DNA of 46,727 nt from Candidatus Zixiibacteriota bacterium (lineage in GTDB: Bacteria; Zixibacteria; MSB-5A5; WJJR01; JAJRUJ01). Shown piece after piece: positions 27,201 to 44,391 of this stretch. Location: the NCBI GenBank assembly GCA_024277855.1, contig JAJRUJ010000015.1:1-46727 (forward strand). Direction: 5' to 3'. The notes beneath the pieces are model-generated. The model did not search any database. It was not told the DNA's origin and saw only the letters and a list, made by a program, of their open reading frames with translations. A program made the position numbers and the translations under genes. How positions within the stretch are numbered: position 1 is the first letter of the stretch; each line of letters opens with the position of its first letter.

Positions 27201-28463
27201 ATGCCACACGGGCAAAAATCGACAATCGTATACCTTACTGTTCTCATAGTCATGTTTGTCGGCTGTGCTGCACCCCATCGGGCGATTCAACTGGCCATGC
27301 CGAAGCTGAACAGCCCGGCCGTGCGGGTTCTGCTGCCACTGACCGCAAACGAATACCGGGTGGATTGCACCGGTTATTTCACTACCCGGGTGGTTGACGC
27401 TTCCGGCGACCAGAATGTCTACTACTGCACTCGGCCGATCAAGCTGGTCTATGAACGATCCCGCTGGACCTTGTATGACAACAGTGGGGCGATATTGGAA
27501 CACGGTTTGGTGCAGATCGCGCTTTCACCAAAAAACAGGGACGACCATCTAAGCATCAACGACAAACCGTACGCCGGCTCGTTGATGATCTATCCACCGA
27601 GGATCGGCACGACGACTCCGCAGGTGATTAATATTGTAAACGTTGATGACTATCTCCTGGGCGTGTTGCCGCCGGAGTTGGGGTTACGTAATGCCGACGA
27701 ATTCGACGCGGTTAAAGCGCAGGCGGTCGCGGCCCGAACCTATGCTCTCTCGCACCTTGGTCAATATCCTTCCGCCGATTACGATCTGCGGGCCGATCAC
27801 ATGGACCAGATTTATATCGGTCTGGAAAAACCGTATGGCTGGGTGAAAAATGCCGTGCAGGAAACCGCCGGTGAGGTACTGCGCTATCGGGGGGATCTGA
27901 TCGACGCGTACTATCATTCAACATGCGGGGGATATACCGACGACATCACCGCAGTCTGGGGGAAAGACCCGGTCCCCTATCTCGTCGGGGTCGAAGATAC
28001 GTTTTGTCGCTGGTCGAAATATTACCGCTGGTCGGAATCGTGGGACATCGAAACCCTGAAGACAAATCTGCGGAGATATCTCGAGAGTCTCGACAACTCG
28101 CCTTTCAAACGATTCGACCGCATTATTTCTCTGCGTACTGAAGGACAGACGCCGGGCGGCCGTATCGAGAAGATGATTGTCGTGACCGATCGAGGCGACT
28201 GGACAATCCTGGGCGACCAGGTCCGCTGGGCGCTGGGCCGTCCCTCCATCGGCGGCTCGATTTTACAGAGCGCCCGCTTTGAGCTGTCCCCGGAATACAA
28301 CGAGCGCGGGCAATTGGCGCGTGTCGTTGCTGACGGCGGCGGCTATGGTCACGGCGTCGGGATGTGCCAATGCGGGATGATCGGCCGCGCCCGCGCCGGT
28401 CAGAATTACCGCGAGATTCTGCAATATTTCTACGCCGGGGCAATGGTCGAAAAAACCTATTGA
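27201..28463 (+). CDS. SpoIID/LytB-domain lipoprotein, probable lytic transglycosylase
   Basis: The 420-residue protein has a lipobox (VLIVMFVGCA, Cys 22), so it should be membrane-anchored in the periplasm. The SpoIID domain covers about 140-415: IVNVDDYLLGVLPPELG holds the expected catalytic glutamate (Glu 159), and YHSTCGGYTDD and GHGVGMCQCGMIGRARAGQN are the other conserved blocks. SpoIID enzymes cleave denuded glycan strands into anhydro-muropeptides, the material that NagZ and AnmK process. The gene follows anmK after 90 bases on the same strand. It is not a sporulation gene here, as no sporulation neighbours are seen. Confidence 0.9.
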   Translation: MPHGQKSTIVYLTVLIVMFVGCAAPHRAIQLAMPKLNSPAVRVLLPLTANEYRVDCTGYFTTRVVDASGDQNVYYCTRPIKLVYERSRWTLYDNSGAILEHGLVQIALSPKNRDDHLSINDKPYAGSLMIYPPRIGTTTPQVINIVNVDDYLLGVLPPELGLRNADEFDAVKAQAVAARTYALSHLGQYPSADYDLRADHMDQIYIGLEKPYGWVKNAVQETAGEVLRYRGDLIDAYYHSTCGGYTDDITAVWGKDPVPYLVGVEDTFCRWSKYYRWSESWDIETLKTNLRRYLESLDNSPFKRFDRIISLRTEGQTPGGRIEKMIVVTDRGDWTILGDQVRWALGRPSIGGSILQSARFELSPEYNERGQLARVVADGGGYGHGVGMCQCGMIGRARAGQNYREILQYFYAGAMVEKTY

Positions 28464-28499
28464 TCCTTCTGAGGTAATCGCGTATTTCACGGTGTGTTT

Positions 28500-29756
28500 A
28501 TGGGGGGAAAAAACGCCGTTTACCGGCTGATACCCGTTGTGCTGGCGGCAATCATCTGGTTTTCCGCATTGGAGATGTCTGTCGCGCAGGAGGAACCGAC
28601 GGCCAAAGGGAGTTCGGTGGAATGGGGGATTACCGTTGGCGTCGGCGCCGCACAAGCCGTGCTGAATCCCTCCGAACAACCCTGGGCGGTGGGTTACGAT
28701 CTGCGAGTCGGCTGGGACCTTCGCCTGTGCAGAACCTGGCGACTGGCTGTTCACGCCGCCCGTCGGCGGTACTGGGATGATACTACCACGACCGATAAGT
28801 TCAAACTGCCCAAACCAACGGAAAAAGCCGCCAATACCTGGAATAACACAATCTTCAACCTCAGTGCGCGGCGGATTTTCTCACCGGACAATCGCTGGCA
28901 CCCATATCTGCAGGCCGGCCTCGGCCTGACTCGCTGGGACATTGCTGACTACAGCTCGGGAGAAATCCGGGAAGTGACCGGAAAGGACGGCGACCCGAAG
29001 AAATTCGAAGCGACTGAATTTCACACCAATTTTGGCGCCGGGCTGGAATATGATCTCTCGTCATCAATCTCGGCGCGAACGGGGATCGATTTTTATTACC
29101 TGACCGGCGCGGGGGCCTCATTTGCCCCGGCGGTGGATGATTTCCGCTCTCGGGGAAACATGGTTTTTTCCCTGGCCTTGACGGCCTATTTCGGTCGTGG
29201 TGAGACATCACCGCCGCCGCAACCGGGCGGTTGGCTAACCGAGTATCCGAACAAAAGCCAGATACCAGAGGCCACGGGCGACGAGGCCGCCGGCGAGACG
29301 GAAAAGGCCATCCCCGACTCCAGCAAAGAAAAACAGCAAAAATTCGAACGGACCGATTATGACAAAGACGGGGACGGGGTTCATGACGCAACCGACCTCT
29401 GCCCGGACACTCCACCGGGCACGGTGGTCGATGCCTATGGCTGCCCGCCCGACGAGGACGGCGACGGAGTAATCGACAGTAATGATCGATGCCCCTTCAC
29501 TCCGGCAGGCGCATTTGTCGATTCGGTCGGCTGTCCGTTTGACTCCGACGGGGATGGGGTCTATGACGGATTGGATTTTTGCCCCGAAACGCCGACCCGC
29601 GACATCGCCCACGTCGATAATACCGGCTGTGTGATCGACCGGGATCGGGATCGTATTCCCGATTATCGCGATGATTGCCCCGATTCAAAACCGGGGGCGA
29701 TAGTCAATGCGCTGGGTTGCATCGCCGATGGTGACGGCGACGGTGTCCTCGATTAG
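28500..29756 (+). CDS. Outer-membrane protein with thrombospondin type 3 repeats, N-terminal part (ends at in-frame TAG)
   Basis: A signal peptide (LIPVVLAAIIWFSALEMSVA) is followed by an eight-stranded-barrel-like domain (about 40-235; GYDLRVGWDLRLCRTWRLAV, FSLALTAYFGRGE), a Pro/Glu-rich linker and five thrombospondin type 3 repeats with calcium-binding DxDxDGVxD patterns (DKDGDGVHDATDLCPDTPPG, DEDGDGVIDSNDRCPFTPAG and so on). The frame stops at TAG (29754-29756) inside the fifth repeat, but LDVCPDSPRGLAVDQDGC and an OmpA domain follow in the same frame. At the stop position the other repeats carry Ala, Ser, Gly or Tyr; Ser (TCG) or Tyr codons are one base from TAG. An alternative GTG start lies at 28494. 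Confidence 0.85.
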   Translation: MGGKNAVYRLIPVVLAAIIWFSALEMSVAQEEPTAKGSSVEWGITVGVGAAQAVLNPSEQPWAVGYDLRVGWDLRLCRTWRLAVHAARRRYWDDTTTTDKFKLPKPTEKAANTWNNTIFNLSARRIFSPDNRWHPYLQAGLGLTRWDIADYSSGEIREVTGKDGDPKKFEATEFHTNFGAGLEYDLSSSISARTGIDFYYLTGAGASFAPAVDDFRSRGNMVFSLALTAYFGRGETSPPPQPGGWLTEYPNKSQIPEATGDEAAGETEKAIPDSSKEKQQKFERTDYDKDGDGVHDATDLCPDTPPGTVVDAYGCPPDEDGDGVIDSNDRCPFTPAGAFVDSVGCPFDSDGDGVYDGLDFCPETPTRDIAHVDNTGCVIDRDRDRIPDYRDDCPDSKPGAIVNALGCIADGDGDGVLD

Positions 29757-39493: not shown

Positions 39494-42028
39494 CTATTTG
39501 CCGGAGTTTTGGAGATCGTCCGGCTGCGATTGGTCAACCCCGACTGCAGCCGGATTAAAAATCCAGTCCATCAGTTGATAGACAAAACGGCTCATGGCAT
39601 TCTGCTGAGCATTCGGGATCATCGCCGTATACCCCAAAGTCTTGCGCTCAAAACAGCGCGAGTTGCCGAAAGCAATAACCCGCCCCTGACCATATTCGAC
39701 CTGGGCGACCACCGGCGTACCGTCGGGGGCGCGGAGCAGAGGCACACCACCTTTGACCGGCGCCGCATCACGCCAGATCGGCGCGGCCGGTGAGCGGACC
39801 GCCGGACCGGAGGTGAGCTTAATCCGGTTGTTAAAATCCAATTCGAGCGAGAAAACGTTAAGCAGTGTATTGGTCGGCGTTATGCCGTTTTCGGGATCGT
39901 CCATCACGACCAACGTTCCCCCGCCCTTAACATAGGCCTTGAGGCGTTCGATCTGTTCCGGGTTCGGGATCTGCGCCGGGTCGATAATCATCAACGCACC
40001 CATTTTTTCGGCCTCGTCCAGACACTTGTCGAATGAATCATATTTGCGGGGATAGACATCGACGCGCTGGGTCCAGACATAAAACGTATGGAAATCCTTG
40101 TCCTGATTATTGGCCAGCCGCTTTTCGGGAATGAAGAATCTGGAATATTCGCCGTCGATAACCAATTGCTTGTAGGGCCGAATCGGCTCGGGGAGCGGAT
40201 AGTTTTCGCGGTTAAGGCCCTCGATATATTTTGCGGAGAGCTGGAAAGTGATCAAGCCGATTACCAACATCCAGACAAATGACTGGGCCCCGTATCGGCG
40301 GCCGGCCAAACCGGCGCAGAGCAGTCCCAGACCACCGAGGAGGAACATCAACACCCGCCAACCGGGAAAACGCTCCATGCGGTTGGCAAATTCGACCAGC
40401 CCAAGCATCAACTCCGGCCGCCCGGGGATCAAGATAAAGAAATTCGAGATTAACGTACTGTCGGTAAAACAGATGATTCGGCCCTTGCCGTAAGTCGCAC
40501 TGGCCACGGTAAAAAACGGGCCGTAGCGATACCCGGTGTGGTTAATCCGCTCGGGGAAAAAATTGCGCTCGGAATAATCGGCCGGGAGCGTCTTGAGATT
40601 GAGGTCAACCATCACCCCGCGCACACCCCAGTCGCCACGGAGAGTACACTGCCCGCCCCAGAGGAAAAAGGGCATATTCTGTACAACGGTATGTTTGAGT
40701 GTCCGGGGCATCTGATATAGATTCAAATCGCCGGTGACGATCTCGTAGCCGATATCGGGCACGTACCGCACTCCGAATTCCTTACTGATCTGGTTGAGAA
40801 AAGTCGCGCTGCCAAAAACATTCGTGTGGTCGCCGATCAGGATCAGCCCACCCCCATTTTCGACATAGTCGTGAATGGCCTTAATCTCATCGGGTTCGTA
40901 GGGCATCGTCGGGACTTTGAGGCAGACCACGGCATATTGGGCCAGGTATTCCGGCGTAAATTTTTGATACCCCCGGTCCATCTCATAATACTTATCCAGG
41001 AATTCCGCGCCGGTGTAGAAATTGTAGGTCGACTCCTGACCATACCATACCGTATCGAAGACTTTGTCGGTCCACTCCCATTCAGAATGGTATTCATCAA
41101 TCAACAACCGGCCGTCTTTTTTCACACCGGCATCGACATAGGCCTGCATCATCGTCCAGCAAAAGACAGCGACCACCGTGCCCGCGACAATAAGACCACC
41201 CCGCCGCCAGGTGAGTTTCGGCAAGCCCGGCGGCCAATTCGCGCCGTCGGGTTTTGGACGCGGTGAAAACGCGCGTCCCCCGAGCAAGAGGAAAACCCAC
41301 ACCGAAGTCCAGGCGGTAATCGACGGCCACCAGAAAGTACCCTGGATGCCCCGCGAAATGTCATAGGAAAGCAGCCCGGCATAACGCAAAAGCATGTAAC
41401 CAAATATGGCGATGGCTGCCCGCCACCAGGCGCCGATACGCATGCGGCCGAGGACAATGAGCGCAATAATCCCGATAAAAACCTGCCAGAAGAAATATAG
41501 CCCCATGTTGTTCAGAGAGGGCACAACCTGATAAAGCAGATCGGGAGTAATCAGTTGGAGGCCGGCGGTGGTGACCCCGCTTTCGATCCCAAAAAGACTG
41601 AACATCGCCTGCAGGATATCGGCGGCCGGCTGAATGCTGTGCGCCCGCGGCCCGAGGACAAAGTAATAAAGATACGAGCCGGCCAACTGCAACACCAGGA
41701 CTGCTCCCAGACTGACCAGCGCATCGGAAATACGCTTGAAAAGCCGATTAAAGTTTAAGACCGAGCCGAGAATAATCCCGAGGGCTAAAATCAGCGCGCC
41801 GATTCCGGTAAGGTTGCCCCAAAAATAATAAAACAAGATCAAGGCGATGGCCGCCGGGAGAGAAAACCAGCCCCGGGGAATGATCGCCGTGGCGCGCTGT
41901 TTGCCGACCAACAGCGCCGCAAAGGCAAAAACGATGCAATAGTAATACACCGAATGATCGGGGAAGCGCGACGGCTCGACAAACAGCCACCCCACCGCCA
42001 GCAGACATATCCCCAACGACAGGATCAT
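39494..42028 (-). CDS. Large membrane protein with two glutamine-amidotransferase-like domains
   Basis: The protein has 844 residues. Eight or more N-terminal helices (1-280) are followed by an anchor helix (LIVAGTVVAVFCWTMMQAYV). The first Rossmann-like domain is about 320-560 (LAQYAVVCLKVPTMPYEPDE; GGGLILIGDHTNVFGS). A helix pair comes next (about 597-645), then a second such domain (about 655-830; MIIDPAQIPNPEQIERLKAY, VKGGGTLVVMDDPENG, GQGRVIAFGNSRCF). The soluble folds resemble DUF4350/GldG-type or ThuA-like domains, which often lack catalytic residues. Its start overlaps the upstream gene's stop by 4 bases (ATGA), with GGAGGGGGC before it. The upstream gene is a paralog with the same layout. 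Function unknown. Confidence 0.85.
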   Translation of the reverse strand: MILSLGICLLAVGWLFVEPSRFPDHSVYYYCIVFAFAALLVGKQRATAIIPRGWFSLPAAIALILFYYFWGNLTGIGALILALGIILGSVLNFNRLFKRISDALVSLGAVLVLQLAGSYLYYFVLGPRAHSIQPAADILQAMFSLFGIESGVTTAGLQLITPDLLYQVVPSLNNMGLYFFWQVFIGIIALIVLGRMRIGAWWRAAIAIFGYMLLRYAGLLSYDISRGIQGTFWWPSITAWTSVWVFLLLGGRAFSPRPKPDGANWPPGLPKLTWRRGGLIVAGTVVAVFCWTMMQAYVDAGVKKDGRLLIDEYHSEWEWTDKVFDTVWYGQESTYNFYTGAEFLDKYYEMDRGYQKFTPEYLAQYAVVCLKVPTMPYEPDEIKAIHDYVENGGGLILIGDHTNVFGSATFLNQISKEFGVRYVPDIGYEIVTGDLNLYQMPRTLKHTVVQNMPFFLWGGQCTLRGDWGVRGVMVDLNLKTLPADYSERNFFPERINHTGYRYGPFFTVASATYGKGRIICFTDSTLISNFFILIPGRPELMLGLVEFANRMERFPGWRVLMFLLGGLGLLCAGLAGRRYGAQSFVWMLVIGLITFQLSAKYIEGLNRENYPLPEPIRPYKQLVIDGEYSRFFIPEKRLANNQDKDFHTFYVWTQRVDVYPRKYDSFDKCLDEAEKMGALMIIDPAQIPNPEQIERLKAYVKGGGTLVVMDDPENGITPTNTLLNVFSLELDFNNRIKLTSGPAVRSPAAPIWRDAAPVKGGVPLLRAPDGTPVVAQVEYGQGRVIAFGNSRCFERKTLGYTAMIPNAQQNAMSRFVYQLMDWIFNPAAVGVDQSQPDDLQNSGK

Positions 42029-44391
42029 GGTGTGCCCCCTCCGGCGGCGGCAGTCGTTCCGCTGGTCGCCCGCATCAGTTCGCGGAAGAACCGGATATTC
42101 TCGATGATATAGTCATCCCCCCGGTTTTCCAGATTGCTGTTGAACAAAAACACCGGATCGCCGATAACAATCAACCCGCCCTTTCCCCGGCGTGTCGCAC
42201 TAACCAGCGGCATCCGGGAGGCCTCACAGAGGGTACGCGTGTTGTCGTTGGTACTGGTGATCGGGTACGCGCGGGCGAAGATTACTTTCTGACCCAGCCC
42301 GCGGCCTTCGGCGCGGCCCAGTGGAATGTTTTCGATTTTCAGGTCAAATTCGGCAAGTAGTTTTTCGACCGCCGCGTGCTCTTCAAATCCGGCCGCAACC
42401 AGGACCCACCCCCCCTGTTCGATATAGGCGACCAAATCGTCGATCTCCGGCCGGGTGATCGGCTGGGTCGGTCGAGCGATAATGACCAGATCGGCTTTTT
42501 TCAGCCACCCCGGCTGCCAATCACGCCGTAACTCCGGTTGGTAGCCGTTGCGCATCAGGTTGAACTCCAATCCGCCGATCGAATATTTCTCCCAGCCCAT
42601 CAGGTCATACACTTCGCCATGGGAAGCATCAATATAGGCCAGCCGGAACAATTCATCATTCCAGCTATCGGGTTCGCCGGCCGGGGTCAGATTCCAGAGT
42701 GAGACGGAAACAACCGGGAGCAGCACCAATAACCAAGCACCCCGAATAGGTTGTTTACCAAAAAGGAAAACCAACAATCCGGCAATGATCAAAACGAGGG
42801 GAAATCCCCACAGGCGGAGATTATCCCAGCCGGCGTTCCCTCCCCCGGCCAGCCAGGCCAGGGTACGCGCGGCGAAGCGATGGCTCTTGACCAGGGCGCC
42901 GTTCTGAAACGGTGAGGTGTCGCCAATCAGGACGGCTCGTCCGGCGCCATAATATGCGGCCCCGACAATTACAACATCGCCCAGCGGTTCACCTGCGTCA
43001 TATTCCAGATTACCCAGATACGAGCGCTCTTTGTTGGCGACATTGCCGGGATCGGAAAAAGCATGCGTACCGACAACCAGGGGCATCGCTCCCGGGGAGG
43101 GTTCGACCGATGCGCCCAGCCAGACCTCGATATCACTGTGGCGCGTTACCGACTGAGTGATGCGTGAGGGATGAAACTGCATTTCCCCCACCCAGGACCG
43201 TCTGAGCGGAACGGCGGTATCGAAATTCAAGCTCAAACCCATTGGTTCAGTAATGTCATTGGTCGGGCCGCGGATTGCCGTATACCCGGTGTGGTCGGCC
43301 AGCGCGAGCAATCCCCCACCCTGCCGGACAAAAGAGAGAACCGAATCGCGCTGCCAGCGAGGGAGCGAATCGATCAGGTTGGCAAAAATGATGACGTCGA
43401 TCGAATCGAAAATTTCCGGGGTGACATTCGCGCGGCGAATGTCATAACCCAGCCCCTCGCAGAATTGCGGCAACATCCCGAACATCCCACCGCTGCGATC
43501 GCCGAAACGGGTAAAATTCGGGGTCATCGTGTCTAGTTTGTCCGCGTTGAGGATAAGGATGCGCTTGTGTTCTCCCCCCGACGAACTAAACGGTCCGGCA
43601 AAAAGCACGGCAAGTACGGTAAGCGCACCCAAGGCGGGCCAGAGCCAGCCCGGCTGAAGGCGTCGAGAGACACCGGAGTCTCTATCCGGCCGATGAACCC
43701 GCGTCATCACGAACATAACGACCACAACCCAGAGCAGGTAAAATACCGAAAGATGGATAAATGCGGCCATGGTCACCGAAATCCAACCGGCAATTCCGGC
43801 GATCATCGGGTAGGCCAGCGCCCAAAAGATCGGCTGGCCCAGCAGCACAAAAGCCACACCGGCCAGCGTGTTGCCCCAGCGGGCGCGAGAGCTGTAAAAA
43901 TGAAGGACGAGAACAAAGACAACCCCGGCGAGGATGATTCCCCAGCCGGCGGCGGTCGGGCCAAGTTGCAGCCCGGCCGGGGACAGGGCGGAAAAAAGAC
44001 CGGAATACCAAAACGAAAACTTACGCAGGAAATTATAGGTCACCGGCCAGGAACAAAGCACCATCCACGTGATCGAATAGACTGCCAGTGCGGGCAGGAT
44101 CCAGTCCGATTTTTGACGACGGGCATCATTGCCGCGCCGGACCAGAATTATCGTGCCAAACAGGATGGCGAGTTTAATCGGGACATCGGCCCGGAGGTAA
44201 AAACCCACGGCCACCGCGCCGGCAATCCAGATCAGGAGACGGTTGAGCAGGGGATAATCGTCAAACCAATTTTTTTGCCGCAACCAGAGCCAGCCAAAAA
44301 CAATCGCCTCGGCCAGGATATATTGGGTTGGACGGAAATCGCCAATACCCCGGATGGCCAGCGCAATGAGGATGAGAACAGCATAAACCAA
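42025..44391 (-). CDS. Paralogous large membrane protein with two glutamine-amidotransferase-like domains
   Basis: The 788-residue protein starts at TTG (44389-44391), with GAGGG 6 bases before. About eight helices (1-245) are followed by an anchor helix, a first Rossmann-like domain (about 275-505; RILILNADKLDTMTPNF; SIDVIIFANLIDSLPRWQRD; GGGLLALADHTGYTAI), two helices (about 525-570), and a second domain (about 580-770; ADLVIIARPTQPITRPEID; GGWVLVAAGFEEHAAVEKLL; GKGGLIVIGDPVFLFNSN). The order matches the next gene exactly. Motifs like GDxxxF repeat in both domains and resemble ThuA/DUF4350 folds. The pair overlaps (ATGA) and must be made together. No ABC-transporter gene of the Gld type is adjacent. 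Function unknown. Confidence 0.85.
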   Translation of the reverse strand: MVYAVLILIALAIRGIGDFRPTQYILAEAIVFGWLWLRQKNWFDDYPLLNRLLIWIAGAVAVGFYLRADVPIKLAILFGTIILVRRGNDARRQKSDWILPALAVYSITWMVLCSWPVTYNFLRKFSFWYSGLFSALSPAGLQLGPTAAGWGIILAGVVFVLVLHFYSSRARWGNTLAGVAFVLLGQPIFWALAYPMIAGIAGWISVTMAAFIHLSVFYLLWVVVVMFVMTRVHRPDRDSGVSRRLQPGWLWPALGALTVLAVLFAGPFSSSGGEHKRILILNADKLDTMTPNFTRFGDRSGGMFGMLPQFCEGLGYDIRRANVTPEIFDSIDVIIFANLIDSLPRWQRDSVLSFVRQGGGLLALADHTGYTAIRGPTNDITEPMGLSLNFDTAVPLRRSWVGEMQFHPSRITQSVTRHSDIEVWLGASVEPSPGAMPLVVGTHAFSDPGNVANKERSYLGNLEYDAGEPLGDVVIVGAAYYGAGRAVLIGDTSPFQNGALVKSHRFAARTLAWLAGGGNAGWDNLRLWGFPLVLIIAGLLVFLFGKQPIRGAWLLVLLPVVSVSLWNLTPAGEPDSWNDELFRLAYIDASHGEVYDLMGWEKYSIGGLEFNLMRNGYQPELRRDWQPGWLKKADLVIIARPTQPITRPEIDDLVAYIEQGGWVLVAAGFEEHAAVEKLLAEFDLKIENIPLGRAEGRGLGQKVIFARAYPITSTNDNTRTLCEASRMPLVSATRRGKGGLIVIGDPVFLFNSNLENRGDDYIIENIRFFRELMRATSGTTAAAGGGTP

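Follow-up and report, generated by a model that had tools for sequence, protein, structure and literature searches.

The window, i.e. the whole stretch of 46,727 nucleotides analysed here (contig JAJRUJ010000015.1 of Candidatus Zixiibacteriota bacterium), encodes two adjoining membrane proteins, A and B, which probably act as a dedicated extracytoplasmic membrane machine for the maturation or sorting of leader-bearing surface proteins with T-C-x-G-x-x repeats. No description of the A-B pair, of the leader or of the Cys-repeat proteins was found in the libraries searched (literature: open-access); the statement of the initial annotation that no system of this form has been described is in agreement with these searches.

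Gene locus and neighbourhood

The genes are located on the minus strand in the order A, B, C:

42025..44391, minus strand: protein A gene, TTG start, 788 aa; start position same as in relatives
42025..42028, minus strand: ATGA overlap of 4 bp, comprising the A stop and the B start (from ORF coordinates)
39494..42028, minus strand: protein B gene, ATG start, 844 aa
39005..39358, minus strand: protein C gene, 117 aa, 135 bases beyond B

The overlapping reading frames suggest translational coupling of A and B, and the genes A-B(-C) seem to form an operon of their own. A UbiB-like kinase gene is located upstream of A-B; downstream, on either strand, are C and the genes for flagellin, an M48 protease and a CorC-like protein (window ORFs, Pfam). 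No ABC transporter or gliding gene was found among the genes neighbouring A-B in the window, as initially remarked, and no ABC ATPase with permease partner was found in the window or recurred beside the pair in 23 related loci. A reading as defence system was rejected, as PADLOC gave no match, and no match was found in the plasmid collection. Elsewhere in the window (27201-28463 and 28494-29756, plus strand), two adjacent ORFs of equal length (420 aa each) are possibly tandem paralogs.

Predicted structure and topology

AlphaFold2 models of A (pLDDT 79.7, pTM 0.83) and B (pLDDT 85.0, pTM 0.85) were built on cross-phylum alignments. Both models show one layout, with nine N-terminal TM helices followed by two alpha/beta domains that have a TM pair between them; an amphipathic helix sits between TM5 and TM6 in both chains, and the N-terminal region of B also contains a beta-hairpin. 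HHalign shows homology between the soluble halves of the two proteins (probability 99.1%). The view of the initial annotation that A and B are coupled paralogs is supported by overlap, homology and layout, and its order of helix block, soluble domain, helix pair and second soluble domain is confirmed; its count of eight helices is to be replaced by nine plus the amphipathic helix. The parts behind the N-terminal helices are as follows:

A, about 270-510: GIFT-like domain 1, predicted extracytoplasmic
A, 520-568: TM pair
A, about 580-776: GIFT-like domain 2, predicted extracytoplasmic
B, about 300-550: GIFT-like domain 1, predicted extracytoplasmic
B, 557-609: TM pair
B, about 618-824: GIFT-like domain 2, predicted extracytoplasmic

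Lys and Arg are generally enriched in the loops before TM3, 5, 7 and 9 relative to the intervening loops in both families (positive-inside rule); in B, the long loop preceding TM6 departs from this pattern, its Lys/Arg being offset by acidic residues. This distribution predicts that the N-terminus is inside and that all four soluble domains are outside the cytoplasm, so that of the two locations initially considered, periplasmic or cytoplasmic, the former side of the membrane is favoured.

The DUF4350 profile (PF14258) was matched above the Pfam cut-off by both chains (E 2.8e-13 for B, 4.8e-11 for A), and the GldG-family profile ABC_transp_aux (PF09822) above cut-off by B and slightly below by A; matches to ThuA and GATase1_like were weak, and NCBIfam gave no match for A or B. 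The best Foldseek matches of both chains were IFT52 GIFT domains (E 7.4e-7 and 2.2e-7), with ThuA-like proteins, OST48 (6s7t_G, with B), site-1 protease and GH42 domains at lower rank. Both chains are thus placed among GIFT-like domain proteins by profile and by fold; the DUF4350/GldG-type character proposed initially is well founded, and the ThuA-like one is limited to the weak profile match and the lower-ranked structural matches.

Invariant residues are GMFG, D366-H367-T368, D391, D491-T492, Q496-N497, D745, N753 and E755 in A (18 sequences, many phyla), and H314-S315, W317-E318-W319, H401-T402-N403, D523-S524-T525 and N529 in B (22 sequences). In domain 1 of both chains, D-H-T and D-[ST] motifs are conserved and fall in loops (alignments and AlphaFold2 models), and no Cys is invariant in either of these sequence sets. 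Ligand binding by the soluble domains is likely, as a part and not the whole of the function of A-B.

Distribution and co-inheritance

Relatives of B were found in Zixiibacteriota, Blastocatellia, Planctomycetota, Eisenbacteria, Latescibacterota, KSB1, Bacteroidetes, Desulfobacterales, Clostridiales, Oscillospiraceae, Delongbacteria and Actinomycetota (names as deposited, mostly MAGs); the presence of A/B is sparse and scattered over many phyla. Where the contig extends far enough, A immediately precedes B, with two exceptions, L055 (B without adjacent A, at a contig edge) and L066 (a partial B-like ORF). Conservation of order and adjacency across many phyla argues against a chance pairing and supports two chains that are inherited together. 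In a tree built from their soluble parts, each of the two families is monophyletic with respect to the other, and the distances within A and B are correlated (r=0.86), which points to one old duplication followed by joint inheritance of both genes; a heterodimer of A and B is plausible. At two loci, of KSB1 and Bacteroidetes (L055:4933-8742 and L061:11656-15101), genes for TolC-, HlyD- and MacB-like proteins follow the pair and the Cys protein, and a 370-aa protein of a kind not recognised is common to both.

Leader-bearing Cys-repeat surface proteins

At most A-B loci a gene for a secreted Cys-rich protein adjoins the pair (reading of neighbouring genes). Directly behind the signal peptide, the Cys-repeat proteins contain a conserved leader, SPLFxxSLxxSIxxLEG, which is a short amphipathic stretch, followed by repeats of the pattern T-C-x-G-x-x with Cys mostly every 6 and in some proteins every 4 residues. 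The source genome encodes two such proteins, both unlinked to the window:

L132:5383-7977: repeat protein C92, 864 aa, 117 Cys, T9SS-like tail
L133:296-4213: repeat protein C97, 1305 aa, 170 Cys, dockerin-like end

Gaps of exactly 6 residues between Cys number 99 in C92 and 134 in C97. The repeat consensus in this genome is T-C-P/D-G-T-A, in which the Thr preceding Cys and the Gly are conserved almost as well as Cys itself. The initial annotation had missed this partner class, which lies outside the window, and also C as a third gene of the operon and the distant likeness of the B core to exosortases.

The link was examined in 132 genomes of the window's phylum. Strong B matches (E below 1e-100) were found in nine (G000-G008), and Cys-repeat proteins were found in exactly these nine; a 36-column leader profile at E<=1e-4 also selected exactly this set, all remaining genomes being weaker than 1e-3. 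The corresponding Fisher p of 4e-14 is overstated, since the nine genomes belong to one order/clade and their match possibly represents a single evolutionary event. In other phyla, a Cys-repeat gene adjoins A-B in L045, L047-L050, L052, L053, L055-L057 and L059-L062, and also in L136, L141 and L210; at L044 and in the genome of the window, the repeat genes lie apart from A-B.

The leader profile was built without genomes G132, G133, G135 and G138, and in each of these (whole genomes) its best match was a secreted Cys-repeat protein; no credible match was obtained in the B-bearing genomes G136 and G137, whose loci are fragmentary. In a second phylum (that of G143), B is present in 3 of 47 genomes, of which the profile missed two at a threshold of 0.01; all three A-B loci have a gene for a leader-like, Cys-bearing secreted protein directly upstream, as read after the profile result. 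At L211 and L212 the partner is a short protein that has few Cys. The repeat segment of L062 gave no match in ten genomes, even where a repeat protein was known; this query was uninformative and was therefore replaced by the leader profile.

The C-terminal ends of the partner proteins differ. L143, one of the loci listed here, holds the repeat protein of the Clostridiales COT-073 record, a cultured carrier whose A-B locus is L054. SLH domains (L062, L143) and CWB2-like repeats (L142, by eye) were found; a C-terminal motif with TM helix and basic tail ends the partners of L057, L211 and L212 only, and is absent from the Zixibacteria, Eisenbacteria, SLH and CWB2 types. A TxWGxxKxxF end is conserved in the Eisenbacteria-type L052, L056, L060 and L210. 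Since the anchors vary by phylum and leader and repeats are constant, the most likely target of A-B is the leader/repeat part rather than the anchor. The Eisenbacteria/Latescibacterota-type repeat proteins of L052, L056, L060, L136, L141 and L210 share a common end like TERTTWGRxKxxFR, possibly a further sorting or anchoring motif.

Proposed function

For the maturation of the repeat proteins, the following sequence of steps is proposed: after export, the leader would dock on A-B in the membrane, where B provides an exosortase-like core that has no nucleophile; the GIFT domains would hold a ligand, most likely a glycan, or transfer it onto the Thr/Cys repeats; the repeat protein would then be released to the surface; and C, where present, may keep the cysteines reduced meanwhile. 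Sugar binding has been proposed for GIFT domains, which also occur in the oligosaccharyltransferase (OST) subunit OST48/Wbp1 (PMC7226087), and it is for this reason that a glycan is favoured; by this analogy, glycan transfer to the repeats would be the chemistry of first choice. No glycosyltransferase or thiol enzyme consistently adjoined A-B in the loci examined.

The most specific form of the proposal is put forward tentatively: an exosortase-fold heterodimer that lacks the nucleophile and bears four GIFT domains would recognise the N-terminal leader and modify, extracytoplasmically, the T-C repeats of very large surface proteins. If true, this would be an undescribed kind of leader-guided protein modification, comparable in its logic to that of peptides but extracytoplasmic and at up to a hundred or more sites per protein. 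For an orphan membrane pair spread over several phyla, substrate class and leader are now defined and residues to mutate are at hand, which makes the system testable, and exosortase-like and GIFT-domain machinery is extended to a setting where the Cys array itself needs explaining; a crosslinked sheath and a metal or glycan carrier are candidate forms of this array.

Protein C and thiol chemistry

In protein C, a single TM helix is followed by a small CcmH-like domain that contains four conserved Cys. Its gene is the third behind A-B, at times in two copies, and was seen only in the Zixibacteria order. Relatives of C matched CcmH (PF03918) with E 1.5e-4 and 1.7e-3 at 18.1 and 21.5 bits, below the Pfam cut-off of 25; the window copy gave no Pfam match.

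The Cys motif of C, together with the role of Cys as the defining repeat residue (117 and 170 per protein in the source genome), would fit thiol or cofactor handling, in which A-B, with C, would control disulfide formation or supply the evenly spaced cysteines with a metal or sulfur ligand. We regard this alternative as conceivable and rather doubtful, given that neither A nor B retains an invariant Cys, that C is confined to one order, and that the Thr and Gly of the repeats are conserved nearly as well as their Cys.

Relation of the membrane core to exosortases

No exosortase family (PF09721, TIGR04178) was matched when 35 TM regions of A and B were searched against Pfam and NCBIfam. An earlier HHalign comparison with long exosortases only was unconvincing, and improved with short exosortases of related genomes: TM5-TM8 of B aligned with these over 111 columns (score 33.6, P 1.2e-4). 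The choice of short exosortases was partly made after the first result had been seen, and controls were therefore run, in which 200 block-shuffled alignments reached a maximum of 25.1 and reversed ones 9-11. The B profile also matched the exosortase adjoining the A-B pair of L211 (E 0.0016); A gave no signal against the exosortase profile (HHalign). At the position of the catalytic exosortase Cys (start of TM6), B is variable (for example N, K, S, R, Q), as is A (for example A, Y, T), by alignment, in neither case a conserved Cys, while the Arg of exosortase TM7 is retained in B as the nearly invariant R215. Both AlphaFold2 models show five TM helices, an amphipathic helix (plus hairpin) and three TM helices, an order that was read from sequence on the exosortase side; the profile likeness is found with B only. 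Judged from these sequence comparisons, B likely descends from exosortases; for A such a descent is possible, by shared topology only, and neither protein is classed as an exosortase.

The L211 locus, the second A-B pair of genome G159, contains a gene for a 122-aa leader-bearing protein with C-terminal TM helix and basic tail before the pair, and behind it an exosortase gene (L211:9303-9854, plus strand; TIGR04178, 48 bits at a cut-off of 23; best matches archaeosortase B, XrtX and XrtH) and a gene for an XrtH-associated membrane protein (L211:9829-10446, plus strand). No exosortase adjoining A-B was seen at loci other than L211, and the A/B-bearing genomes G002, G004 and G006 gave no exosortase match. 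In addition to a long exosortase, many Zixibacteria genomes (e.g. L164-L183) encode a short member of the family, of about 190 aa and with the motif EECTGxYE.

Proteolytic sorting, with A-B as a diverged exosortase-type complex and the repeat protein as the substrate of cleavage or transfer, would account for the B core with its R215, for the true exosortase and XrtH-associated protein behind the L211 pair, and for the TM helix and basic tail of the L211, L212 and L057 partners. It is unlikely, since the nucleophile is absent from A and B, the majority of partner proteins end without such a tail, and exosortases were neither seen next to the other pairs nor matched in three A/B-bearing genomes.

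Other readings

The initial annotation suggested a heterodimeric membrane complex with four ligand-binding domains; read as a receptor or transporter that acts on its own and is not tied to a protein substrate, this is quite improbable: domains of the GldG/DUF4350 type are often termed substrate-binding (PMC5898192) and a receptor needs no ATPase, but the tight link to leader-tagged Cys-repeat proteins would be left unexplained, and no energy-coupling gene was conserved with the pair in the 23 related loci. A known GldFG-type ABC exporter or gliding component, to which the PF09822 match might point, can practically be dismissed on the absence of an ABC ATPase or Gld gene nearby, the lack of an NCBIfam match, and a nine-TM core with two GIFT domains per chain that differs from the GldG layout.

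Comparison with known systems

The maturation machine proposed here has parts that recall dedicated maturation systems of the exosortase type. Exosortases and archaeosortases (PF09721, TIGR04178; PEP-CTERM-type substrates) share with A-B the predicted order of five helices, amphipathic helix with beta-hairpin and three helices (read from sequence for the exosortases), a dedicated set of tagged secreted proteins, the TM7 Arg (in B) and, at L211, direct proximity to one A-B pair. In contrast to these enzymes, A and B have no catalytic Cys, carry two GIFT domains per chain and are unmatched by the exosortase models of Pfam and NCBIfam, and the tag of their partners is an N-terminal leader, whereas the exosortase signal is a C-terminal TM helix.

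CcmH of cytochrome c maturation resembles C in having a single TM helix and in its helical domain with Cys, but the relatives of C stay below the Pfam cut-off, and the A-B partner proteins are not CXXCH cytochromes. The IFT52 GIFT domain is the top structural match for A and B; IFT52, however, belongs to the intraflagellar transport train of cilia and has no membrane part.

GldG/DUF4350 proteins (PF09822, PF14258) and the archaeal predicted secretion complex of arCOG01314 also place an extracytoplasmic GIFT/flavodoxin-like domain at the membrane and, like A-B, have a link to surface proteins (PMC5898192); these proteins have a single soluble domain and one or two TM helices, and none of their partners (MoxR ATPase, vWA, Ig-type) was seen around A-B. 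OST48/Wbp1 differs as a non-catalytic subunit with few TM helices, and its STT3-like partner was not seen with A-B; it is like A and B in its luminal GIFT domain, in having two luminal domains and in belonging to a membrane complex that acts on exported proteins (PMC7226087), and it was among the Foldseek matches (6s7t_G).
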